Below are positions 898 to 12,814 of a DNA stretch of 39,025 nucleotides, piece by piece (within the stretch, counting starts at the first letter, position 1; every line of letters starts with the position of its first letter). A program made the position numbers and the translations under genes. The stretch is taken from the NCBI GenBank assembly GCA_003670925.1, contig QWQG01000249.1:1-39025 (forward strand). Reading direction: 5' to 3'. This DNA comes from Planctomycetota bacterium. GTDB lineage: Bacteria > Planctomycetota > Planctomycetia > Planctomycetales > Planctomycetaceae. The notes beneath the pieces are model-generated. The model did no database searches. It was given only the letters and a program-made list of their open reading frames with translations, and was not told the origin of the DNA.

Positions 898-3800
898 TCA
901 TGGGTTCCGCGAGTAGTAGACGCGACGACCAAACTTCAAAAAGAGTGCAGGTGTGACGACTTGGTCAAGCACCGTCGATGTCAGCATGCCGCCAAACACA
1001 ACCAGAGCCAGCGGGTAAAGAATCTCTTTTCCGGTTTGCCCGGCTCCAAACAGAAGCGGCAGCAGTCCGATGAAACTTGTAGCCGCCGTCATCATCACGG
1101 GCGACAGACGCTCCAGACTGCCGCGAATGATCATCTCCTCGCCAAATACTTCACCTTCGTGTTCCATGAGGTGAATGTAGTGCGAAATCATCATGATGCC
1201 GTTGCGGCTAACGATTCCGATCAGAGTAATGAACCCAACCCAATGAGCGACAGACAAACTGGTAGCGCTGACCCACACTTTTGGCCACTGCCACCATTCG
1301 ACTGCCTGCAGCGCTTCAGTGGTTGGTTGATTGACGATCAACAGAGTAACAACGGACCCCAGTGCAGCCAGTGGAATGTTAGCCAGAACCTGCAACGCGG
1401 CTCGCCAGGATCCAAGACACTTCGTCAACAGCAGAAACACACCAATTACCGACACACTTCCCAAGATCAGCAGCCGAAAATTGGCTTGCTGTTGTGCTTC
1501 AAACTGGCCACCGTATTCAATGCGATAGTTTCCCGGCAGTGTCCGCAGTCGCTCTTCAATCGGTTTCGCGAGGAGTTTGATCTGCCCGACTACACTGGCC
1601 AGATCCCGTGCTTCGACGTTGCAGAAGACCACAATGCGTCTCTGAACGTGTTCTCGATTCAGCGTGTTGGGCCCTGTGGTATCCCACACATCGGCGACTT
1701 CCCCCAGCGAGACTTTGCGACCGGAGGGCGTGTCTAGTATAGTCTGCTGGATCACGTCCGGATCATTGCGTGAGGCTTCGTCGTACCAGACGACCAGTCC
1801 AAAGTATCGATCATCATCCAAAACCTGTGAAACGACTCGACCTTTGTACGCCGTCTCCAACAGTGCAGAAACATCCCCCGGTGCCAACCCATAACGCGCC
1901 GCGTCTTCACGGCGAACCTGCAAACGTACCTGTGAAACATCCACCTGAGGCTCCAGTTGCAGGTCAACGACGCCGGGAACTTGGCTCATCGCCGTATAAA
2001 CATCCTGACTAGCATTTCGAAGTTCTCGCAGGTCGTTGCCGAAAACCTTGACGGCGATCTGAGCCCGCACGCCCGACATGATGTGGTCGAGGCGGTGCGA
2101 GATCGGTTGACCGATATTGGCCTTGATACTGGGGATCGACGTAATGCGATCGCGAATTTCAGCCAGAACCTGCTCGCGAGGTCGCCCGGTCGTCTCGAAT
2201 CCCCATAGATGTGCCATTGGAATCAATCGCAGGATCGCAGCGCCCCAGCCGGATTTTGGACGACGATACTCCTGAACTCGTACGTCAATTTCGGATGAAT
2301 TGACTCCCTCCGCATGTTCATCCAGTTCCGCTCGGCCTGTACGACGCGAGATGGAAAGGACTTCAGGAATCTCCATCAGCAACATTTCGGCACGTTGAGC
2401 CAGCCGCTGACTTTCGTCCAGACTGGTGCCAGGTTCCGTCTGAAAGCTGATGGTGAATGTGCCCTCGTTGAAAGGCGGAAGAAACTCGCCGCCCATCCAA
2501 AACAGCGCAAGCATCGCAACGCCAACCATCGCGACTGTCCCGCCGAGCACAAGATTGGCATGCCGCAGTGTCCACCGCAGCATGACAGACGTGGCAGACT
2601 TCAAAACGCGCAGGACAAACGGGTCGCCTTTCTCTTCCAGGAATTTGGCCTTTGGCAGCAGATAGGAAGCCAGCACAGGTGTGATGGTGAGCGATACCAC
2701 CAGCGATGCGAGCAACGACGTCATGTACGCCACGCCGAGTGGAGCGAACATGCGCCCTTCCAGGCCGGCCATCGAGAACAGCGGAAACACAACCAGCACG
2801 ACGATCAGGGTGGCGTAGACGATTGAATTCCGAACTTCACAGGATGCATCGTAAATGACCTTGAGTGCGTCTTCGGGAATTGCCTTCTGACGGTTTTCCT
2901 TCAGTCGCCGGTAGATGTTTTCGATGTCCACAATGGAGTCATCAACCAGATCACCAATGGCAACCGCGATACCTCCGAGCGTCATCGTATTGAGCGAGAT
3001 TCCAAACCAGCGAAAAATCAGCACTGTCAGCAGGATTGAGATCGGCATCGCGGTCAGCGAACTGATGCTGGTGCGAAAATTCCACATGAAGATGAAAAGG
3101 ACGACAACGACCCAGATTGCACCGTCACGAATGGCTTCAACGACATTCTCAACTGCCGCCTCAATGAAGTCTGCCTGCTTGAAGATTCGGTCTTCGATGA
3201 GGATGCCGTCCGGCAAATCGTGTTGAAGTTCGTCCAGCACAACACTGATCTGCCGATCAAGTTTCAGTGTGTCCGCGTTGGGCTGCTTCTGGACAGCCAG
3301 AATGACCGCTGATCCGCCTTCAATCCTGTCGCCTTCGCGCACCAGCACGCTACCGTCGCCACGCTTGACCGGACCACCGAACCCAACGTCAGCCACTTCT
3401 TTCAACAGCACGGCTCGCTGATTGCGCCAGACAACAGGCGTGTTTTCGATTTCTTCCAGAGTCAGACTTTGCCCGCTGATCCGGATCAATGATTCTTTTG
3501 GCGATCGAACCATGATGCCACCGCCTGCCAGGACGTTGGCTTTTTCGGCAGCGGCGGTCAGTTGGTCTAGCGTGATGTTCTGAGCCGCCAGTCGCGCAGG
3601 CGAGGTAATAATCTGATACTGCTTCAGAGTACCACCCATAACTGTCACCTGCGAAACACCTTCCACAGCGAGCAGCCGGTTGCGGACGGTGAACTCGCCG
3701 AGCGTTCGCAACTCCATATTGAGTTCAGCGGTGGTGGCTTCGTCGGCAGGAGGTTTCGTGGACCGCAATCCAAGGAGCATGATCTCACCCATGATGGACG

Positions 3801-4197
3801 AGATCGGGGCCATGACAGGATTCACGTCGCCGGGAAGTCGTTCGCGAGCAATCTGCATTTTCTCGGCGACAATCTGACGGTCGCGATAAATGTCAGTACC
3901 CCAGTCAAACTCAACCCAGACAATCGATAGTCCGATGCCGGATGCCGAACGGACTCGTTGAACACCCGTTGCGCCGTTCAATAAATACTCAATCGGTCGA
4001 GTCACCAGCACTTCGACTTCTTCCGGTGCGAGACCGGGGGCCTCAGTCATGACAGTGACAGTTGGTCGATTCAGATCGGGGAACACATCGACGGGCATTT
4101 CGCTGAGTGTGAATCCTCCGTAGATCAGCACTGCGATCGCTGCGATCAGCACGAAGCCGCGATTCTTCAGGGAGAAAGCGATAATGGCGTTCAGCAT
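898..4197 (-). CDS. Heavy-metal efflux RND permease (CusA/CzcA family)
   Basis: This is the inner-membrane proton-driven pump of a tripartite metal exporter, 1099 residues against the family's usual 1030-1060. The N-terminus (MLNAIIAFSLKNRGFVL) is the typical first membrane helix, followed by the porter domain and a helix cluster near residues 360-510. The fourth-helix signature AIGDLVDDSIVDIEN (412-426) carries acidic residues D416, D419, D420, D424 and E426, the proton-relay pattern of heavy-metal RND pumps. The segment corresponding to the CusA periplasmic metal loop reads HRLDHIMSGVRAQIAVKVFG, closer to CzcA than to CusA, so the metal cannot be assigned. It is the last gene of the minus-strand operon, 230 bases after its adaptor gene, with a palindromic element between. 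No outer-membrane factor gene is present. Confidence 0.93.
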   Translation of the reverse strand: MLNAIIAFSLKNRGFVLIAAIAVLIYGGFTLSEMPVDVFPDLNRPTVTVMTEAPGLAPEEVEVLVTRPIEYLLNGATGVQRVRSASGIGLSIVWVEFDWGTDIYRDRQIVAEKMQIARERLPGDVNPVMAPISSIMGEIMLLGLRSTKPPADEATTAELNMELRTLGEFTVRNRLLAVEGVSQVTVMGGTLKQYQIITSPARLAAQNITLDQLTAAAEKANVLAGGGIMVRSPKESLIRISGQSLTLEEIENTPVVWRNQRAVLLKEVADVGFGGPVKRGDGSVLVREGDRIEGGSAVILAVQKQPNADTLKLDRQISVVLDELQHDLPDGILIEDRIFKQADFIEAAVENVVEAIRDGAIWVVVVLFIFMWNFRTSISSLTAMPISILLTVLIFRWFGISLNTMTLGGIAVAIGDLVDDSIVDIENIYRRLKENRQKAIPEDALKVIYDASCEVRNSIVYATLIVVLVVFPLFSMAGLEGRMFAPLGVAYMTSLLASLVVSLTITPVLASYLLPKAKFLEEKGDPFVLRVLKSATSVMLRWTLRHANLVLGGTVAMVGVAMLALFWMGGEFLPPFNEGTFTISFQTEPGTSLDESQRLAQRAEMLLMEIPEVLSISRRTGRAELDEHAEGVNSSEIDVRVQEYRRPKSGWGAAILRLIPMAHLWGFETTGRPREQVLAEIRDRITSIPSIKANIGQPISHRLDHIMSGVRAQIAVKVFGNDLRELRNASQDVYTAMSQVPGVVDLQLEPQVDVSQVRLQVRREDAARYGLAPGDVSALLETAYKGRVVSQVLDDDRYFGLVVWYDEASRNDPDVIQQTILDTPSGRKVSLGEVADVWDTTGPNTLNREHVQRRIVVFCNVEARDLASVVGQIKLLAKPIEERLRTLPGNYRIEYGGQFEAQQQANFRLLILGSVSVIGVFLLLTKCLGSWRAALQVLANIPLAALGSVVTLLIVNQPTTEALQAVEWWQWPKVWVSATSLSVAHWVGFITLIGIVSRNGIMMISHYIHLMEHEGEVFGEEMIIRGSLERLSPVMMTAATSFIGLLPLLFGAGQTGKEILYPLALVVFGGMLTSTVLDQVVTPALFLKFGRRVYYSRNP

Positions 4198-4216
4198 GAA
4201 TTATTCACTTCACTAT

Positions 4217-4411
4217 GAGCCGCGAGGCGCTAGTCAGTTGTTGATTTAGTTCTGTGGATAAGTTTTCGTTTAACGGCAAGCCGTAGGCGACAGTTACTGC
4301 TTGCGCCGACGCCTGCGGCTTGCCGTTAAACGGTTAAATCAACAGACCGCTAGCTGCGGGTGTCTTTTCTGAGTTTCCACACTGTCCCCCGCAGCTAGCG
4401 CTTTGCGGCTC
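4217..4411. repeat. Nested palindromic element between adaptor and pump genes
   Basis: Four inverted pairs lie within 195 bases. The outer pair is gagccgcgaggcgctag (4217-4233) with ctagcgctttgcggctc (4395-4411), 15 of 17 matched. Inside are gttgattta (4240-4248) with taaatcaac (4335-4343), and 23-base arms at 4267-4289 and 4310-4332 with one mismatch. A fourth pair, gctagctgcggg (4349-4360) with cccgcagctagc (4388-4399), overlaps the outer right arm, so two alternative folds compete. It looks like a composite of two palindromic repeats in the intergenic space, possibly affecting pump-to-adaptor mRNA ratio. Confidence 0.85.
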
Positions 4412-4427
4412 ACTCAATCAACGACAG

Positions 4428-6680
4428 CTAACGCAGCGCCGCATAACCTGTCTGCAGGGCCCTCGCCCCGCTAACAGCGACCGAATCATTTGGCACAAGG
4501 CCTTCCAGAATCTGAACAGCCACATCGTCGGATCGACCGAGCACCACAAATCGCCGTTCAAAAGTGTCATCGACTTTGTGAACGAAAACGTACGATCGAG
4601 TCCCCTCGCGAACAATGGCCTCACGCGGCACCGCGAGTTGCGGCGGAATGCTTCCCGTTTCAATCGTCAGTCGAGCCAGCATGTTGTGCTGAACCGGTAC
4701 GCGTGGCATCTGCCTGAGTTCGATCCAGACAGACAGCGTTCGATCATCCTGCCCGACTGAGCGGCCACTTCGGACAAGAGTCCCCGTTACAACTTCCGTG
4801 GCATCTGCGACAAGGCGAACGCGAACCGTTTGTCCAACTTTGACTCGCGAAAGATCGCGTTCCGAAACAAAGCCCTGAACCCACACCTGAGACAGATCAT
4901 GGATCTCAAACACCGACTCATCCGGCTGTACAATATGGCCAAGAACCTTGTCGAAATCCATCACAACTCCATCGATCGGAGAACGGACAGGCAGCGTTGG
5001 CAACAGCGTTCGGGTGGTCACCATCTGAGTCAGTTGTGCTTCCGAGATTCCGGCGGTCGTCAATCGCTGTCGGACATTGTCACGCAGGCCGTTTGCAAAG
5101 TTGAGTCGACTCTCCGCCTCCCATAGTCGTCGCTGAGAGACAGCATCGCCGGCCTCAGCAAGATTGGTCATGATTTCCTGCTGCAACTCCGAATCCAGAT
5201 GGGCTCGCAGCAAATCAAGCTGCAGGTTCTGAAAGTCCTGACTGACGATTTCCGCCAGCACTTCGCCCACACCAACCTTCTGTCCACGATCCACCAGAAT
5301 GCGTGCGATGGCCCCGCTGAGCTGAGCCGAAGCCACGGTACGCCGTGTGGGAGGCACATCGACCAGACCATCCACTGTGATAGTCTCAGCCAGAGTCAAC
5401 TGCGATGCTGGTTGCAGGGTGAGCCCAATATCGCGGGCCGTTTCATCGCTGACCTTTAGCACACCTTTTTTAAAGAAGCTGCCAAGCTCATGGCTTCCGC
5501 GAGTGACAACACGATCTCCAGGGAACAAATTGCCGCCACGCACTTCGATCAGGTCCCCCATGCGGTGACCGAAAACGACGGTTTGCTTCTGATACGTTGA
5601 TGCCACTTTTGTCTGCTCTTCTTCCACAAGCACGAACCGTTCAGCTCCATCCCGAATGACAGCGGACATCGGCACCACTACCTTCTCGCCTGTGTCGCCA
5701 ATCTTCAGCTGTACCTGACCGGACATGCCCGGCAGAAGCAGCAGGTCTTCGGCAGAAGAATTCGACAGCGACGCCCAGACGGTTCCAAGATGTGTCTGTG
5801 GATCCAGAAACTGACCGAAGACATCGACCTGTGCAGGGATCTTCCGATTCGGATACGCCGTCAGAGTCAACTCCAGCGATTGCCCAATCGCGACACGGGC
5901 AAGGTCCTTCTCCAGCACACCGATCTTCAGCCACACAGATGACAGGTCGAGCACTTCAAACAGATGTTCTTTGGAGTTGATCACCTTTCCGACAGAAAGG
6001 TCTGTGTGTGTCACAGTTCCATCAATCGGACTTTTCAGGGCCAGACGCTGCTCAAATGGTTCGTTAGGAGTTCCCAGCATCGCGTCCAGCGCTTCAGGTG
6101 GCAGTTGCAGACCCAGCCATTTGGCGCGAGCGATTTCCAGTGCCGCACGATCTTTCTGGACCTGATTCTTTGCTTCAATGAATCGGATCGCGGGAATTGC
6201 ACCCGTTTTGCCGGCGGCCTCCGCCGAGGACAGGAGCCTGAGAGACAGATTTAGTGCTGTTTGTGCGTTGCGAATCTCCAGCTGCAGCGATTCCAGTTCC
6301 GGGCTGTCGAGTTCGGCCAGCAGTTGCCCGGCTTTGACGGATTCTCCCGGCGTCACCAGGAGTTCGACAATCCGGCCGGAGAGAGGTGAACTCACCATCG
6401 CATGGCGGTTCCATGGCGAGACCAGTGTCCCATAGGCCAGAAGCGACTGAGTCACCTTCTGCGGGCCGACTTCTGCCGTTTGTACATCCAACGTTGTCCG
6501 CGCGGACTTCGTCAGCACCATCTTCCCTGTTTCCGCGTTGACTTCCATCCCACGCGTCGGAAGCGGCTTATGCCCTTCGTGCGCAAACGTTATCGCTGAC
6601 GCAAGGCAAAGAACTACCAGACAGCCACAGTTTATGATTGTCATAACCGGTAGTTCTCGTCCCGATCGTGATCGCATCAT
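4428..6680 (-). CDS. Efflux RND periplasmic adaptor with two tandem membrane-fusion modules
   Basis: This is the adaptor (HlyD/CusB family) linking the pump to an outer-membrane channel. At 750 residues it is nearly twice the family norm (350-450) because the module is duplicated. Barrel/lipoyl segments recur: SPIDGTVTHTDLSVGKVI (218-235) pairs with SPIDGVVMDFDKVLGHIV (567-584), each followed by a D-L-S-x-V-W strand (245-250 and 595-600). A coiled hairpin lies in each half, near 125-190 and 485-545. The N-terminus has Arg residues and a hydrophobic stretch (INCGCLVVLCLASAITFA), a signal peptide, then a HEGH metal-site-like motif. ATG 6680 overlaps the stop of the upstream gene (ATGA), arguing for translational coupling and for this start; ATG 6644 is an alternative. 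Confidence 0.9.
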   Translation of the reverse strand: MMRSRSGRELPVMTIINCGCLVVLCLASAITFAHEGHKPLPTRGMEVNAETGKMVLTKSARTTLDVQTAEVGPQKVTQSLLAYGTLVSPWNRHAMVSSPLSGRIVELLVTPGESVKAGQLLAELDSPELESLQLEIRNAQTALNLSLRLLSSAEAAGKTGAIPAIRFIEAKNQVQKDRAALEIARAKWLGLQLPPEALDAMLGTPNEPFEQRLALKSPIDGTVTHTDLSVGKVINSKEHLFEVLDLSSVWLKIGVLEKDLARVAIGQSLELTLTAYPNRKIPAQVDVFGQFLDPQTHLGTVWASLSNSSAEDLLLLPGMSGQVQLKIGDTGEKVVVPMSAVIRDGAERFVLVEEEQTKVASTYQKQTVVFGHRMGDLIEVRGGNLFPGDRVVTRGSHELGSFFKKGVLKVSDETARDIGLTLQPASQLTLAETITVDGLVDVPPTRRTVASAQLSGAIARILVDRGQKVGVGEVLAEIVSQDFQNLQLDLLRAHLDSELQQEIMTNLAEAGDAVSQRRLWEAESRLNFANGLRDNVRQRLTTAGISEAQLTQMVTTRTLLPTLPVRSPIDGVVMDFDKVLGHIVQPDESVFEIHDLSQVWVQGFVSERDLSRVKVGQTVRVRLVADATEVVTGTLVRSGRSVGQDDRTLSVWIELRQMPRVPVQHNMLARLTIETGSIPPQLAVPREAIVREGTRSYVFVHKVDDTFERRFVVLGRSDDVAVQILEGLVPNDSVAVSGARALQTGYAALR

Positions 6681-7387
6681 TGTGTCACCTCGTCTTTAGA
6701 TGTTGTGTCTGCTTTGTGCTCCAATACATATGGCACCGTAAAGACGGTCCCATTTCGCTGAAACTGGCCCCACGCCTTATAGATTCCGGGCTTCGGAAAA
6801 TGTGCCGCGAATGCGACGGCTCCGTCGGGAGCCGTTTTGGCGTCGCTGCCTGAGACATTCACTTCGCCCGTTGCAAGCCCTGCTGGTTTGCCTTGAGGCT
6901 GATGATTGGCGAAGAGTCGGTATTTTCCAGACTTCGGAAACACGAACTGAGTCGTCATCATGCCAGAGCTGTCCACGTCGGGATGCAGGTGAGCAAATTC
7001 ATCCAGCCCGTCGCGGACGACAATCAAATGCACAAGCTGTTCATGCAGAATGTCAAATGACTTAATTGGCGTGCCATCGGCATCTTGAATTTTCAACATG
7101 AGCTTTGTGGTCGAACCAGCCGCGGGCTGCGAAGGTTCGCTCATCACCACGAGTGTGCGGGGCGGTGCCATATTCATTGGCATATTCTCATGGCCGCCGT
7201 GCGAGCCGTGATCACTTTTCGATGGCGCACCGTTGTGACTGTGCCCGGCATGAGAGTCCGGCAAAGTCGCTTGTTCGCCTGTCGTGGAATGGTCAGTGGA
7301 TGCAGCTGGTGGAACAGGCGTTTGTTGCCCGCACCCGAAAAGGCCAATGCGCACGAGGAGAATTACTACATCAAACGATTTCAACAT
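6677..7387 (-). CDS. His/Met-rich lipoprotein with YtkA/FixH-like domain
   Basis: The 236-residue protein begins with a short hydrophobic segment ending L-F-G-C (C19), a lipobox, so it should be a lipid-anchored periplasmic protein. Residues 30-75 are very rich in His and Met (HSHNGAPSKSDHGSHGGHEN, then MPMNM), a pattern typical of copper-handling proteins. The rest has beta-strand segments such as LMLKIQDADGTPIKSFDI and VRDGLDEFAHLHPDVDSSG, resembling YtkA-like domains. An AAAGG ribosome site precedes ATG 7387. It overlaps the adaptor gene by four bases. The inferred role is periplasmic metal binding or delivery to the pump; the domain name is by pattern only. Confidence 0.8.
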   Translation of the reverse strand: MLKSFDVVILLVRIGLFGCGQQTPVPPAASTDHSTTGEQATLPDSHAGHSHNGAPSKSDHGSHGGHENMPMNMAPPRTLVVMSEPSQPAAGSTTKLMLKIQDADGTPIKSFDILHEQLVHLIVVRDGLDEFAHLHPDVDSSGMMTTQFVFPKSGKYRLFANHQPQGKPAGLATGEVNVSGSDAKTAPDGAVAFAAHFPKPGIYKAWGQFQRNGTVFTVPYVLEHKADTTSKDEVTQ

Positions 7388-7454
7388 GGACTGACCTTTG
7401 ATCTAACGGTGACGTGGACTAAAGGCTGACAAGCACGGCGGACTCACAGGACAT

Positions 7455-8588
7455 CTATTTGACCACATCAATACGAGCGGCCAACACGACAGGATCACCG
7501 TTGTGTTCGGATTCCCAGCAAGCAATGACGGGCCCTGAACCATTCGAAGCTGCAGCAATCATCGGATCGCGCGCCGCTTCCGCCAGCTTTTGTGGTTGCC
7601 CTGAGACAGAGTTCTGTACGAGAAGATCACCCTCGCGTCCGACCGTCCAAACGATCACAGATCCCTTTGAAGATGCGGCAATCCACGGTTGCTGGCCTTT
7701 ACCGAGGAGAACTTCCGGCGATCCATCGCCAGCTGCCTTATAGACATTCCCATCGCGCCGCCAGACTGTTTCCAGAGAGCCCTTTGGGTTGGCCGCCAGC
7801 ATGCCACCATCCATCGGACAGGCGTCCAGTGTCCACTTTCCTCTGCCCAGCTTCTTGCCAGGTGAGAACGACTTTCCGTCGTCCTTCGACGAAGTGACGT
7901 ACATATCTCGATCACCACCGATCGAGTTTCGAAACATGACATGCACACTGTTGCCATTAACAATCACCGACGGATGACAGCATTCACAGACACTTCCATC
8001 CGGTGAACGATAGACGCACTGGTTGGCCTCCCATGTGGCGCCATCATTTTTCGAAACGGCGGCGTAGATTTCCGACTTCTTATCTCGAAGGTCGAGCCAG
8101 ACGCACCAGATCGAACCATCTGCACCCGAGGCCATCGCATGCAGTCCTTCACGCGCTGAATCAGCCATGTCGTTCACTCGAACGGGCCCGTGCCATGTCT
8201 TGCCATCGTCCGTTGATCGCCAGGCAAGGACGTCGCCGTCGCGGCCTTTGCCGATCTGACCACCAATTGCGGTTACGACAACCGCGTTCTTCGTCTTCAC
8301 AATTCGAGGACCACGACGCATTCCGAGCGACATATTGGGAACACGAAATGCCTGCATTGCCTTCCCAAAAGTGATTCCTCCATCGGGAGACTGACAATAC
8401 TGAACCGTATCGCCAATCCCATAGACAAGGTGGACGGAGCCATCGGTCCCGATAGCCGCCTGCGGCTGTTTTGGAGCGTTTGCTCCCTTCCCGGATGCAA
8501 TGATCACTGGATCACTGGCCGAACAATCCGCGGCAGACAATGACGCAAGACACAATGCTGCAATGACGCTGAGATTCAGGCACTTCAT
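7455..8588 (-). CDS. Secreted sialidase-like beta-propeller with CECC motif
   Basis: This 377-residue protein has a signal peptide (MKCLNLSVIAALCLASLSAA). Four Asp-box motifs of the BNR/sialidase fold are visible: SPDGGITF (67), STDDGKTW (125), SKNDGATW (179) and SKDDGKSF (234), so it forms a beta-propeller. I see no clear sialidase Arg triad, so glycan cleavage is not supported. Unusual for the fold are CECCHP (201-206) and DACPMDGG (255-262), clustered Cys/His/Met residues that suggest a metal site. An AAAGGACGG ribosome site precedes ATG 8588. It lies 38 bases after a metal-binding lipoprotein gene and 67 bases before another, which implies a metal-linked role. Confidence 0.82.
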   Translation of the reverse strand: MKCLNLSVIAALCLASLSAADCSASDPVIIASGKGANAPKQPQAAIGTDGSVHLVYGIGDTVQYCQSPDGGITFGKAMQAFRVPNMSLGMRRGPRIVKTKNAVVVTAIGGQIGKGRDGDVLAWRSTDDGKTWHGPVRVNDMADSAREGLHAMASGADGSIWCVWLDLRDKKSEIYAAVSKNDGATWEANQCVYRSPDGSVCECCHPSVIVNGNSVHVMFRNSIGGDRDMYVTSSKDDGKSFSPGKKLGRGKWTLDACPMDGGMLAANPKGSLETVWRRDGNVYKAAGDGSPEVLLGKGQQPWIAASSKGSVIVWTVGREGDLLVQNSVSGQPQKLAEAARDPMIAAASNGSGPVIACWESEHNGDPVVLAARIDVVK

Positions 8589-8626
8589 AACGACCGTCCT
8601 TTTTTGAACAATGACTCAAGTAACGC

Positions 8627-9034
8627 CTATTCCTTGCTTCTGCCGTTTTCGGCCTTCAGCTTCGTCACTGTCGCCAAGGTCTCATCTGGATTCTTCAATG
8701 CTTTGGATTTGCATCCAGCGCAGCACACGAAGACTGGTTGGCCCTTCACATCAAGCTTGAGCGGAGCGTCCATTGATCCAAGCAGGCTGGTGTTCATAAC
8801 TGCACAGAACTTCTGAGCCTCGGCCTCCTTGCGATCCTCGGGGCTCAGTTCTGCCATCGCCAAAGCCACATCAGATTCGCCGCCATCACCGTGCTCATGC
8901 TCGTCATGATCATGACCGTCCACTTCGACGTTAGCCGACGCTTCAGTTGGTGGCGGGGAAGTTTGCGATTGGCAGCCTGACGCAATGGTCGTAAGAGCCG
9001 CAAAGCAAGACAATAACTTCCACGAAACATTCAT
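8627..9034 (-). CDS. Small lipoprotein with His-rich segment and CCxxC metal-binding motif
   Basis: A lipoprotein signal (WKLLSCFAALTTIASGC) is followed by a His/Asp/Glu-rich stretch (DGHDHDEHEHGDGG). The C-terminal half is a treble-clef-like metal domain: FCAVMNTSLLGSMDAPLKLD, then VFVCCAGCKSKALKNP, resembling YHS/TRASH heavy-metal domains. ATG 9034 is chosen because GGAGA sits six bases upstream; ATG 9040 directly abuts GGAGA, and the longer frame to 9100 adds a charged leader unlike a signal peptide. It lies between a related lipoprotein gene and the beta-propeller gene. The inferred role is metal binding or sensing outside the cytoplasmic membrane. Confidence 0.8.
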   Translation of the reverse strand: MNVSWKLLSCFAALTTIASGCQSQTSPPPTEASANVEVDGHDHDEHEHGDGGESDVALAMAELSPEDRKEAEAQKFCAVMNTSLLGSMDAPLKLDVKGQPVFVCCAGCKSKALKNPDETLATVTKLKAENGRSKE

Positions 9035-9077
9035 TTTCATTCTCCATTTGAAGGTTGATTCGGAAACACTGTGAAAC

Positions 9078-9983
9078 CTATTTCGACTTAATGTAATCAT
9101 CGGGAGTTTTCATTTCTTCGGGCCGCTCTTTGGCCATTGTCACGAACTCATCGACGCAGGGTGGGCAGCAGAACTGGTAAGACTTCCCGTCCACAATCCA
9201 GGTAAATTTTGGGTTGGCTTTCGTCTTCGTCACGGGGCAAATTTGATCGCCTTCCTTCGGAAACATGTTATGCGACGAGGTCAGGCCCTTAAATTTCTGA
9301 GTGGCCGTCATACCGCCATTCGCTTTGATATCGGCCTCTGTGTACTTGCCGCCCGCTGTCAAATACAGCTTCTTCTCTTCTTCTGCCGGCAGGCTCTCAG
9401 GCATTTCTTCAGCGTGGGCTTCCGTCACCGTCGTAAAACCCACACGAAAGCGTTCTCCAGCAATTCGCAGGTTGGGAATCGTGACATCCAGTTGTTTACC
9501 CCGAAATTCCTCCGGCAGCTGCCCGACGAACTGCGACGTTTTATCTGGCGCGTCGCCGTCCTGAGGAACAGCCGCAAGTTCGATTGGCGTAGAGTTTGGA
9601 TCGCCGATCGCTTTGACATAGGCTTTGACCGGCTGCACATCCACTTCCTGAATGCGCGTTTCATCTTTGCCCAGCATCAACAAGCGAAAATCTCCGCTTG
9701 TTTCAATGACCGCTTCCGCATGGTAACTGTCCGAGCCAATCGGAATGATGATGCCCCCATGAGAGCCCGGCTTGTGAGGATGCACTTCGTCAGTAACCGC
9801 CTTCTCGCCATCTTCGGCAGCGGAATTCGTTGTGAGGACTGCAGGAGAAGTAACCGGCGTTGTTGCCACGGTCGCGGGTGCAACGGCCGTTGGTTGCGAT
9901 TCTGAGCTGCATCCAGCCAACGTTAACAGGAGAACACTGGTCCAAAGTAAGCCTGCAGAAAAAACAACTAAATACGATTTCAT
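9078..9983 (-). CDS. Lipoprotein with C-terminal Cys metal-binding (TRASH/YHS-like) domain
   Basis: The 301-residue protein has a lipobox (LLLTLAGC, C25), a low-complexity Ala/Thr/Pro linker, and a His-containing region (DEVHPHKPGSHGG). A middle domain of about 120 residues with beta-strand character follows. The C-terminus has CPVTKTKANPKFTWIVDGKS (from C249), then YQFCCPPCVDEF (C272, C273, C276), matching the CP...FCC..C layout of YHS/TRASH metal domains. AAGGAG precedes ATG 9983. The next gene shares the Cys domain type, so the two may be related lipoproteins with different N-terminal parts. A role in periplasmic metal capture is inferred from motif and operon. Confidence 0.82.
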   Translation of the reverse strand: MKSYLVVFSAGLLWTSVLLLTLAGCSSESQPTAVAPATVATTPVTSPAVLTTNSAAEDGEKAVTDEVHPHKPGSHGGIIIPIGSDSYHAEAVIETSGDFRLLMLGKDETRIQEVDVQPVKAYVKAIGDPNSTPIELAAVPQDGDAPDKTSQFVGQLPEEFRGKQLDVTIPNLRIAGERFRVGFTTVTEAHAEEMPESLPAEEEKKLYLTAGGKYTEADIKANGGMTATQKFKGLTSSHNMFPKEGDQICPVTKTKANPKFTWIVDGKSYQFCCPPCVDEFVTMAKERPEEMKTPDDYIKSK

Positions 9984-10237
9984 TTTGCGACTCCTTGCAA
10001 TCGCTCGCGCAGGATTGCGTCGAGAAAGTTCAGGACACGGGAATAACTTGCTGACAATGCAGCCAAACGATTGAGAGCAATGTCGCGCAGCGACTTGCTC
10101 TGTCCATTAAAGCCGTTTTCAGAATCACGCATCAGAGTTCGTGAGAACTCTGTCGAATCTCAGCAGGCACTGGGAGGCCCGAATTCTGACGAATCCGGCT
10201 ATTTCAACAGCAAGTCCAGCCGGACTGAGCGTACGTT
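9984..10237. other. Operon spacer with perfect hairpin
   Basis: The 254 bases between the Cys-rich gene and the first lipoprotein gene hold no gene. A perfect 8-base stem with a GNRA-like loop is present: cagagttc (10133-10140), gtga, gaactctg (10145-10152). There is no adjacent T-run. It could be an mRNA-processing or stability element. Confidence 0.4.
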
Positions 10238-10652
10238 TCAACAGCGACGCACGCTGTGCGCAATCAGAATTGCTGTGCCTGTCGGCATCGAGTCAAATCT
10301 ACATGGCGGCAACCTCATTCTCTGTGGCGACGATTCATCAGCGGACAGGAATAAGGCAGGTGAGCAGATTTCTGAAAGTTCAAGTCTCCATTTAACTGAC
10401 GGAGACGTCGCCAGGATCCGGCTGTCGTCGAGCTTCGCTCCAACTGTGCGATGTTTGCGACACGGGCAATCGTGCTTCTTGTCACCTTCCGAGTTCTTTG
10501 AACACGATTTTTCCGAGCCATCCTGGTGACAGCAGCAAGAAGGTGATTCAGAAGATTCCGCACTCAACATGCGGACCGAACAACAGCATACCGCAGGCCC
10601 CAGAAGGGTCGTCCCGATGAGTAGTCTTTAAAAGGATACGATGTAACATCAT
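10238..10652 (-). pseudogene. Small exported Cys-rich protein gene with one-base frameshift
   Basis: Two overlapping frames form one gene if one A is removed at the TTTTAAAG run (plus-strand 10627-10634). The joined product begins M-M-L-H-R-I-L-L-R-L-L-I-G-T-T-L-L-G-P-A, then V-C-C-C, a convincing signal sequence. It continues with ESPSCCCHQDGSEKSC and KKHDCPCRKH and ends AHSVRRC. Without the shift the downstream frame has only a late ATG at 10570 and would lose its signal sequence. This may be a true inactivating mutation, a sequencing error in a homopolymer, or frameshifting at a slippery run. The Cys clusters and position ahead of the metal lipoproteins suggest a secreted metal-binding peptide. 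No family was recognised with certainty. Confidence 0.65.
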
Positions 10653-10848: not shown

Positions 10849-11536
10849 CTACCCTGCGGAGTTGTGATGATCGACGGCAGCCATAAGACTGGCGATTTCC
10901 TCAAGACCGTTGACACCGATGGCCGTGACATATCTCGTCCCCACTTTCCAAGTGACCGCAAGCTGGTCGGGCATGTGCAACATGGCATTTTCAGCACATG
11001 AGTGGACGCCAATCGGTAACCAGCTGAGGGCCGCTTCGCCACGACCGGCTCATATCCCAGCAGTTCCTTAGCAGCGTCAAGCGAAACCAGCGTCCCTCCA
11101 TCCTGAGCGGACAATGCATCAACGACGGCATGTGGCTTCCGGGGAAATCGCGTCAGAGTCTTATAAACGTGAGCTGCGACCACACGATGGATCTGGTCAT
11201 GCGATGTTGGCGATGCTGCCCAATAGCCAATCGCCACGGCGACAATAGCGATGTCACTATCAACGGAAGCCACCGATACATTGACCGGGGAAAACTCCAC
11301 CGTCGGAAAGGGCGATTTCGCTCGTCAAGGCGCACAACAATCTTTGCCCAATTCCCCGCTGAAATCGCCAATTCGCGTTCCTCACGGAACAGTCCTCCAA
11401 TTTGGCCAAAGGATCGGAGTTCTGCCGTACAAACGTCGCAACTGTTGACGTGCTCACTGATCTCTGCAGTCTTATCCGCAGGCAATTCGCCGTCATAGAA
11501 TTCCGAAAGCCGAGCCCTGACTTGTTCGCAATTCAT
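10849..11536 (-). pseudogene. zf-HC2 anti-sigma factor with CCTC motif, multiply frameshifted
   Basis: Three frames contain consecutive parts of one protein. Frame one (from ATG 11536) gives MNCEQVRARLSEFYDGELPA and HVNSCDVC, the zinc-binding HxxxCxxC of zf-HC2 anti-sigma factors. Near 11250 the reading continues in a second frame with the membrane helix AIVAVAIGYWAAS, then the domain EPVVAKRPSAGYRL and LKMPCCTCP. Near 10970 it moves to a third frame, LAVTWKVGTRYVTAIGVNGL to HHNSAG, stop at 10849. The segment between CCTC and the third frame appears shortened by deletion. The start lies one base after the stop of the sigma remnant, a normal sigma/anti-sigma pair. At least two lesions make it nonfunctional. 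Confidence 0.8.
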
Positions 11537-11537
11537 G

Positions 11538-11640
11538 TCAATCTCCCCAACCCAGAGCCAGCAGTTCTTTCTGCAATTCTCGACGAGCCCGATTGAGCCG
11601 CGACCCTACCGTCCCTTCCGTTCTAGCGACATTGCCGCCG
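11538..11640 (-). pseudogene. C-terminal remnant of an ECF sigma factor
   Basis: Reading back from the TGA at 11538-11540, the frame gives N-V-A-R-T-E-G-T-V-G-S-R-L-N-R-A-R-R-E-L, then QKELLALGWGD. This matches the end of sigma region 4, with the conserved EGTVxSRLxRAR helix. The adjoining anti-sigma gene starts one base later. Upstream, around 11626-11646, the sequence becomes the opposite-strand SUMF1-like gene, so the body of the sigma gene is missing. The exact junction is uncertain by about 20 bases. Confidence 0.75.
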
Positions 11641-12393
11641 TTTGAGAATACGATCGGTATGTCATTCAAGCGATTACCCATTGGTCCATCTGGTGGTTTT
11701 TCTATCGGCGTCCACGAAGTGACTCAGTCTCAGGATGAGTCGGTGATGGGCGCTAACCCGAGCTCGTTCAAGGGCGCGAACAACCCTGTTGAGAATGTGA
11801 GTTGGGACGACGCAGTGGCGTTTTGCGCGAAGCTGTCAGCTCTTCCGGCGGAGGTAGCCGCCGGTCGCGTGTATCGTTTACCGACGGAGGCAGAATCGGA
11901 ATATGCATGCCGCGCGGGGACAACGACAGGCTACAGTTTTGGAGATGATGCGCAGGATCTTGGTGAGTACGCGTGGTTTAGCGACAACAGCGGGAATACA
12001 ACTCACGGAGTAGGTGAGAAGCTTCCGAACGGCTGGGGTCTATACGACATGCACGGTAATGTGTGGGAGTGGTGTTCTGATGCAGAAGGCTCGCCCCGCG
12101 TGTACCGTGGCGGCAGTTGGGACGACGACGCGGCGTCGTGCCGGACGGCTTACCGCGGCACGGTCGACCCGTTGTCCCTCAACTACTCCTACGGCTTCCA
12201 CCTTGCCCTGAGTTCTCCGTCTGGCAAGTCGCCGGAGGCGGAACAGGGCAAGTTGTCCCGTGGTTGCTGTGGCCAGTACGAAGATACGTCGGGACAACTG
12301 CCGAATCAGGCCGTTTCAACGGGTGTGGCCACACCCGCAACCATGTGTTTTCATGCTTTCCCTGAACTATTTCAGAACGTGGAAACCATATAA
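11626..12393 (+). pseudogene. Truncated SUMF1/FGE-like (formylglycine-generating-enzyme family) gene
   Basis: The frame carries hallmark family blocks: NTIGMSFK, GVHEVTQSQ, NPSSFKGANNPVENVSWDDA, YRLPTEAESEYACRAGTTTG, LPNGWGLYDMHGNVWEWCSD and RVYRGGSW. The open frame begins at TTG 11593, but its first codons (MSRDPTVPSVL) are simply the antisense of the sigma-factor remnant. The first ATG is 11659, inside the conserved NTIGM block, so the 5' end and signal peptide are gone. Compared with the family, the loop after GG (the MGS...R region) and the segment between WCSD and RVYRGG are also missing. LALSSPSGK, the usual end, is followed by a 45-residue extension with CC and C residues shared with the remnant at 498. 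It is probably an inserted, decaying cassette. The family includes lectin-like display proteins as well as enzymes. Confidence 0.72.
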
Positions 12394-12409
12394 AACACTG
12401 AAAACGCTG
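12255..12409 (+). repeat. 155-bp dispersed repeat, copy B, with hairpin potential
   Basis: This is the second copy of the module at 560-714. A perfect 10-base inverted pair is present, agttgtcccg (12251-12260) with cgggacaact (12290-12299). A second gapped pair crosses it, ggttgctgtggcca (12262-12275) with tggccacacccgcaacc (12326-12342). The module covers the tail codons, the TAA at 12391 and 16 further bases, and similarity stops sharply at gctg. Confidence 0.88.
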
Positions 12410-12814
12410 CAAAAGCGAAGTGATTAAGTCATATTCAGGATAGTCTTGAGCAGCATTCTGAGGTGCCTCTTTCACGGACTGATGTCGTCAGATAACACCA
12501 GTTTACGAAACACGCCACAGAATGCACTTCTTTGTTCCCCAATGATTGCGGCCACTCCAAAGTCCCGCTACGCTGGAGAAAGGCTGAGCGGAGCATAGGG
12601 CAACGCAGAAGTGCGACCCGAGCGCCGTCTCAGGGCTCAAGACCGAAGCGGCGACGACGAGCTTCGCTTGCTGTCGCCCTCATCTGACTTCGGGATTGAG
12701 CTGAATGCGATAAACTTCACCCCGACTTGCCTGCGCACTCCCAAGACACAACGCCACTTTTCCTAATCGATTTCACCCACAGACCCTGCGAACGAGCCAG
12801 TTTTTTGGCAGGTC
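12410..12814. other. Gene-free region with weak repeats
   Basis: About 400 bases hold no plausible gene on either strand. A partial hairpin, ggcgacgacgagc (12650-12662) with gcttgctgtcgcc (12666-12678), has 10 of 13 positions matched. The stretch separates the inserted SUMF1-like gene from the next transcription unit and may contain the other flank of the insertion. Confidence 0.4.

Follow-up and report, generated by a model that had tools for sequence, protein, structure and literature searches.

The locus analysed here raises the question of whether a pump of the resistance-nodulation-division (RND) family and the Cys-, His- and Met-motif proteins encoded beside it constitute one machine, and which metal such a machine would export. 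The locus occupies positions 898 to 10,652 of contig QWQG01000249.1 in the Planctomycetota bacterium assembly GCA_003670925.1; the window is this entire contig (39,025 nucleotides, contig C230 of a 5.78-Mb genome). A first-pass annotation, made from the letters of the sequence, had described seven same-strand genes for a pump, an adaptor and several metal-handling surface proteins, and all seven were found in place on the minus strand. It missed that two full adaptor profiles lie in one chain. Several Planctomycetota combine the pump with a double adaptor made as a single chain and with proteins, anchored or exported, that carry conserved Cys, His or Met motifs. We consider that the locus probably encodes an envelope system for metal export, copper being its most likely substrate, whose adaptor comes pre-dimerised.

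The adaptor gene (4428..6680, minus strand) encodes a chain of 750 amino acids (aa) that comprises two complete RND adaptors, an N half (residues ~66-399) and a C half (~466-741). The halves share 26% identity over 322 residues (E 1e-31); TIGR01730, the profile for RND periplasmic adaptors, matched in two stretches with 239.6 bits against a cut-off of 94.9, and HlyD_D23 also matched in two stretches. In the AlphaFold2 model (17 rows; mean predicted local distance difference test score (pLDDT) 87, predicted template modelling score (pTM) 0.73), a single N-terminal helix (12-35) is followed by hairpins at 127-158/164-190 and 481-509/516-542. Foldseek retrieved ZneB as the best PDB fold, then CusB, and also MacA, MexA and AcrA; each alignment covers about one half, and because Foldseek compares chains, it is silent on whether the halves pack as ring neighbours. 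The motif HEGH stands at residues 34-37, and H[EA]GH occurs just ahead of the first half in all 29 tandem adaptors versus 3 of 53 single ones; several of the single adaptors are truncated at contig ends, which can conceal the motif. A nearly full-length, co-linear tandem is present in at least 11 of 392 genomes of the phylum, the window's included, a lower bound because at most two candidates were scored per genome. A read-through of two genes was rejected as an explanation of the 750-aa product, because 10 other genomes carry the fused form too, with identities of 27-47%. Two Armatimonadota loci with a profile coverage of 1.2-1.4 (L126 and L137; L-numbers label the compared loci, L094 being in the window's own genome) were also rejected as tandems, each having one full-length C-terminal match and partial extras.

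The distribution of the fusion was read from a tree of pumps. A pump-alignment scan of the named genomes returned at least 80 loci, the best among the matches listed, and the tree comprised 102 rows (from these 80 loci, the window, L069-L079 and L105), the pumps of L080-L104 being left out. An adaptor was readable for 82 rows (29 tandem, 53 single); the 20 unlabelled rows, including L105, where a contig end cuts the adaptor, and L123, where the stretch starts at the pump, were excluded. All 29 tandem rows together with four unlabelled rows formed one clade, with a Shimodaira-Hasegawa-like approximate likelihood ratio test (SH-aLRT) value of 99. One change between tandem and single accounts for the 82 labelled rows, and more changes are needed when the unlabelled rows are treated as a third group. 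A single origin of the tandem fusion appears well supported but not proven, because the tree was a quick one (LG+G4) without bootstraps and has some long branches. In this sample the tandem rows are all planctomycete, which leaves room for cases elsewhere. On the stretches of L107 and L115, which fall inside the tandem clade, no adaptor was found; the L107 pump is 74% identical to the window's, and its contig, filed as Candidatus Kuenenia, is possibly misbinned. In a tree of half-adaptors, the N halves grouped together (SH-aLRT 91), as did 27 of the 29 C halves (92), with L113 and L114 apart, a result that fits either duplication in place or the joining of two adaptors. The same pump family includes a clade dominated by Bdellovibrionota (L130, L131, L139, L145-L148, L150, L151, L158, L162 and L185). 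Beside these 12 pumps the half-adaptor profile recognised no adaptor, the L185 stretch starting at the pump; the adaptor of this clade may be absent or very divergent.

The genes around the tandem adaptor recur with it. In the window, all on the minus strand, the pump (898..4197) and adaptor are accompanied by a His/Met-rich lipoprotein (6677..7387), a BNR propeller (7455..8588), two proteins with clustered Cys, here called CysLip2 (8627..9100) and CysLip1 (9078..9983), and the gene of a Cys-rich exported peptide (10238..10652). L110, from a Planctomycetaceae metagenome-assembled genome (MAG) whose pump is 96% identical, carries all seven genes in identical order, and L069 has them with a P-type ATPase bearing YHS and HMBD domains inserted between lipoprotein and adaptor. 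L071 carries an ATPase, a divergent channel gene, the peptide, both Cys lipoproteins, adaptor and pump, and is without the propeller; partial recurrence of the order was seen in L071, L106 and L113. Recurrence of the gene order in other Planctomycetota supports the term module; the recurrence in L069 and L110 and the selective constraint on all seven genes (below) set the arrangement above chance. The first-pass reading is supported in so far as it places an RND pump at the centre of an extracytoplasmic metal module.

Neighbour counts were taken within 8.5 kb of the pump (best match E<1e-5) at 29 tandem and 45 single loci of the same family; these counts and the residue counts below omit 10 distant RND rows, and near-identical pairs (L112/L118, L113/L114, L073/L125, window/L110) were kept and inflate the numbers. 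CysLip1 was present at 19/29 tandem versus 3/45 single loci (p 8e-8, uncorrected for kinship), CysLip2 at 12/29 versus 0/45, the propeller at 6/29 versus 1/45 and the peptide at 6/29 versus 0/45, the peptides of the window and L069 being below threshold and excluded from the six. The His/Met protein was found at 4/29 tandem and 7/45 single loci. The Cys lipoproteins thus track the tandem pump, whereas neither the ATPase nor the His/Met protein sets it apart. The module idea had been staked on lipoproteins and propeller being found beside RND pumps elsewhere, which holds for both Cys lipoproteins and for the propeller at few tandem loci. Propeller and His/Met lipoprotein are optional members of the module. 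In L072-L074 and L125, tandem loci outside the window's subclade, the order is channel-adaptor-pump, which suggests that the lipoproteins joined later, in one subclade.

Among the module proteins, the pump, adaptor and propeller exceed Pfam cut-offs; the other four match no family above them, and a scan of the four accessory proteins against a defence-gene library gave no match. CysLip1 is a lipoprotein whose model (mean pLDDT 79) shows a beta sandwich at 78-184 and a strand-strand-helix unit at 257-286 around the Cys residues. The best structural matches of its N-domain were PA0388, then FetP, CrdA, P19 and HftA (Z 8-9.6), with Z 9.1 for CrdA, 9.3 for FetP and 6.3 for CopC at 6-15% identity; these values concern the fold alone, and the VIA-align rows cover the N-domain and barely the C-terminal Cys domain. 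The matches are no more than suggestive of a copper-protein-like sandwich. The C-terminal segment has the pattern C249-x22-C272-C273-x2-C276. TRASH/YHS domains carry the motif CX19-22CX3C, which the spacing C249-x22-C272-x3-C276 fits, at sub-threshold Pfam scores (TRASH 20.7 bits versus 27, YHS 14.8 versus 30.3). A nearly complete CysLip1 turned up in 3 of 392 genomes of the phylum (at most six candidates scored per genome), always in a tandem module, and its N-domain spreads more widely, occurring in 21 of 30 fetched loci. The C-terminal Cys domain is also encoded beside Caa3_CtaG, a cytochrome oxidase assembly factor, in L190 (1498-3355) and L191 (1486-2942).

CysLip2 is a short protein with a C-x26-C-C-x2-C motif and a probable lipoprotein. 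Both CC..C motifs of the earlier description are present, and the lipobox pattern fits CysLip1 (LAGC), not CysLip2, which has ASGC. The His/Met-rich lipoprotein (236 aa, EFAHLHP motif) was rightly named as such (14 His, 8 Met, lipobox LFGC); it has no Pfam family, and its gene overlaps the adaptor gene by four bases. The propeller (377 aa, probably secreted) carries the CECC that had been pointed out (201-204) and CPMD, with a conserved CP at 257-258; 12 of the 13 propellers in the alignment retain CECC, including one from an Acidobacteriota MAG (L143) at 22% identity. In the window's own genome, L094 (contig C116, 4819-6119) encodes a second, shortened propeller of 239 aa, which aligns with the longer one at residues 38-117 and 224-375 of the latter and adjoins a second CysLip2; the fetched 15 kb gave no pump or adaptor match. 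The label planctomycete-type agrees with the tandem rows and is too narrow for the accessory proteins. In the mainly Bdellovibrionota clade, a relative of the CysLip1 N-domain occurs in 6 of 12 loci (L130, L139, L146, L147, L150 and L158; E 2e-8 to 8e-5); in L130 and L158 its gene lies immediately ahead of that of the pump. A relative of the His/Met protein precedes the pump in L131, L139, L146 and L158.

From these features a working scheme may be drawn. Outside the inner membrane the lipoproteins would bind metal, CysLip1 through its copper-protein-like sandwich and TRASH-like Cys site, CysLip2 through CC..C and the third lipoprotein through His/Met. From the lipid-anchored domains the metal may go on to the adaptor or pump, with the adaptor's HEGH end as a possible route. 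A 3:6:3 stoichiometry, with six as 3+3, has been argued from structures such as CusBA, cross-links, TriABC and laboratory AcrA fusions (PMC4446572, PMC13328181). Given six adaptors (3+3) for each pump trimer, a trimer of fused chains would make the full ring, in which N half and C half would be fixed in two non-equivalent positions, like TriA and TriB in TriABC. The ring would meet an outer-membrane factor (OMF) encoded elsewhere, and this shared channel would complete the conduit. In the relatives, the Cys-rich part of an anti-sigma factor may sense metal and release an extracytoplasmic function (ECF) sigma factor, a switch that appears broken in the window's genome. That Planctomycetota evolved, once, the combination of a ring of three fused and functionally split adaptor pairs, a CrdA-like/TRASH surface relay and a metal-sensing Cys-rich anti-sigma factor is a speculative proposal, and we regard it as rather unlikely to hold in full.

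The pump (1099 aa, ACR_tran) is of the heavy-metal efflux (HME) type, PF00873 scoring 772 bits and placing it in the CusA/CzcA family; its best NCBIfam model, TIGR00914, reached 698.2 bits, slightly below the cut-off of 701.45. Several observations weigh against copper export by a joint machine. The CusA Met triad (M573/M623/M672 in CusA numbering, placed on a PDB alignment) is absent, the pump having S584, S634 and H705 there; five outgroup rows of the same alignment have MMM at these places, and main-family pumps have His at the third in 90/92. D626, H628 and H701 are found in 92/92 main-family pumps and E627 in 89/92, so these residues are family-wide and say nothing specific to the tandem clade. 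The closest solved relative of the adaptor N half by sequence is the CzcB-like adaptor ZneB, which we take to be a zinc adaptor. CopA-type ATPases near the pump show no enrichment (tandem 9/29, single 12/45). The CysLip1 model has a pTM of 0.45, Z-scores under 10 are weak for a sandwich even where the matches include the copper proteins CrdA, FetP and P19, and Foldseek returned nothing for CysLip1 at E<=0.001. OMF or channel genes lie near 13/29 tandem versus 34/45 single pumps (p 0.013). The 27 propeller loci fetched differ in the length of the stretch, and some stop at the end of a contig; 6 of them have RND or adaptor matches, which places the propeller mostly elsewhere. Divalent-metal export (Zn, Co, Cd or Ni) by the same machine, for which the missing Met triad, the conserved DEH and H701/H705 and the closeness of ZneB speak, is an appreciable though minority possibility. 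Since the pump lacks the triad, the case for copper rests on its company, namely the TRASH/YHS-like domains, the CtaG neighbours in L190/L191, the fold matches and the P-type ATPases with YHS and HMBD domains in L069, L108 and L111, presumably of the copper type. Copper thus seems the likelier metal, with reasonable rather than high confidence. Within the tandem clade D626, H628, H701, D704 and H705 are invariant. A comparably appreciable minority possibility is co-location without a joint machine, pump and adaptor working alone and lipoproteins, propeller and peptide being separate metal-stress proteins under the same regulator. The tandem loci L072-L079, which have pump and adaptor, an OMF in 7/8 and no CysLip1, fit this, as does a propeller often away from pumps; the presence of CysLip1 in 19/29 tandem loci, and RND, adaptor or OMF genes within ~1.5 kb of its N-domain in 15 of the 21 separately searched N-domain loci, argue for the joint export machine.

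The state of the window copy was compared with L110. Upstream of the module, L110 and L106 have an intact ECF sigma factor and zf-HC2 anti-sigma factor, the latter with a Cys-rich C-terminal part in L110. In the window, the anti-sigma gene is a remnant (10855..11536, minus strand) spread over three frames, in which the segment matching the Cys-rich residues 194-234 of the L110 protein was not found. The sigma factor is reduced to its last 26 residues (11541..11618, minus strand; 92% identical to L110), its cut end abutting an FGE-sulfatase gene (11593..12393, plus strand). The Cys-rich peptide gene had been annotated from 10652 and is present, but no single frame reads through it from there: the frame of the ATG at 10652 ends in a stop at 10548, and a second frame (10624-10241) is homologous to the 136-aa protein of L110, the intact open reading frame (ORF) being 10238-10570 with ATG 10570 as start. 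Compared with L110, the reading frame breaks near 10624-10650, owing either to a frameshift or to an error of assembly. In L110 (2018-2897), two more small Cys-rich ORFs (132 and 167 aa) lie between the anti-sigma and peptide genes. The truncated sigma factor, the anti-sigma factor in three frames, the frameshifted peptide gene and the shortened propeller with CysLip2 elsewhere in the genome (L094) would suit a decaying copy that no longer works. We judge this improbable, as the reading frames of pump, adaptor, propeller and lipoproteins are uninterrupted and show purifying selection versus L110, a figure to which selection on the L110 branch contributes. The ratio of nonsynonymous to synonymous substitution rates (dN/dS, 0.04-0.33 across these genes) was 0.043 for the pump, 0.114 for the adaptor, 0.125 for CysLip1, 0.149 for the propeller, 0.274 for the His/Met protein and 0.331 for CysLip2; the peptide gave 0.341.

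Known systems share parts of this arrangement. As in CusCFBA and CzcCBA, the pump is of the CusA/CzcA family and the adaptor fold of the CusB/ZneB type; the differences are the fused adaptor pair, the pump without Met triad and the several added Cys/His/Met-motif proteins. RND metal pumps can have accessory periplasmic metal proteins as neighbours, CusF being one; the scanned proteins gave no Pfam match of the CusF type. The contig lacks a channel gene, as had been noted: PF02321 (OMF) gave no match on it and 15 domain matches on 9 other contigs of the genome. This is not a rule for the tandem loci, given the OMF counts above. The Helicobacter pylori CrdAB-CzcBA system has a single adaptor, and its CrdA, among the best folds for the CysLip1 N-domain (8-14% identity over the aligned part), has to our knowledge neither a lipid anchor nor a TRASH-like domain. 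This system, reported to place an accessory copper-binding protein next to an RND metal pump (PMC12319023, PMC9182242), is an example of the accessory periplasmic metal proteins already known in that setting.

Reviews regard the adaptor dimer as the functional unit, pointing to TriABC, to AcrA fusions made in the laboratory and to DSY0927 as one natural fusion (PMC4446572, PMC4338810, PMC13328181). DSY0927 of Desulfitobacterium hafniense likewise has two adaptors per polypeptide, but has a Gram-positive ABC transporter as partner and an N half without coiled coil (PMC4338810, PMC4446572), whereas here the partner is an RND pump, both modelled halves have hairpins and 29 tandem rows were found. 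TriABC-OpmH resembles the present locus in having two adaptors for one RND pump, and differs in that TriA and TriB are distinct, separate proteins and triclosan is exported (PMC13328181). The accessible portion of a Chem Rev review (PMC8277102) names no natural RND adaptor fusion, and our literature search, with most subscription papers outside its reach, retrieved DSY0927 and TriABC but neither this module nor a planctomycete RND pump served by a fused adaptor. Natural adaptor fusion is already known from DSY0927, and the RND-partnered planctomycete form appears to be a new variant. The fused pair as the natural metal RND adaptor of a lineage offers an independent evolutionary test of pump assembly; it could reveal which half sits where and lets the halves be altered singly. 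For lipoprotein domains of planctomycetes that lack annotation, the locus further provides a role in metal handling that can be tested.

The module is flanked by a direct repeat of 164 bases (93%) at 554-717 and 12249-12412, the latter copy overlapping the FGE-sulfatase gene. Further partial copies of this repeat lie on contigs C90 and C192.

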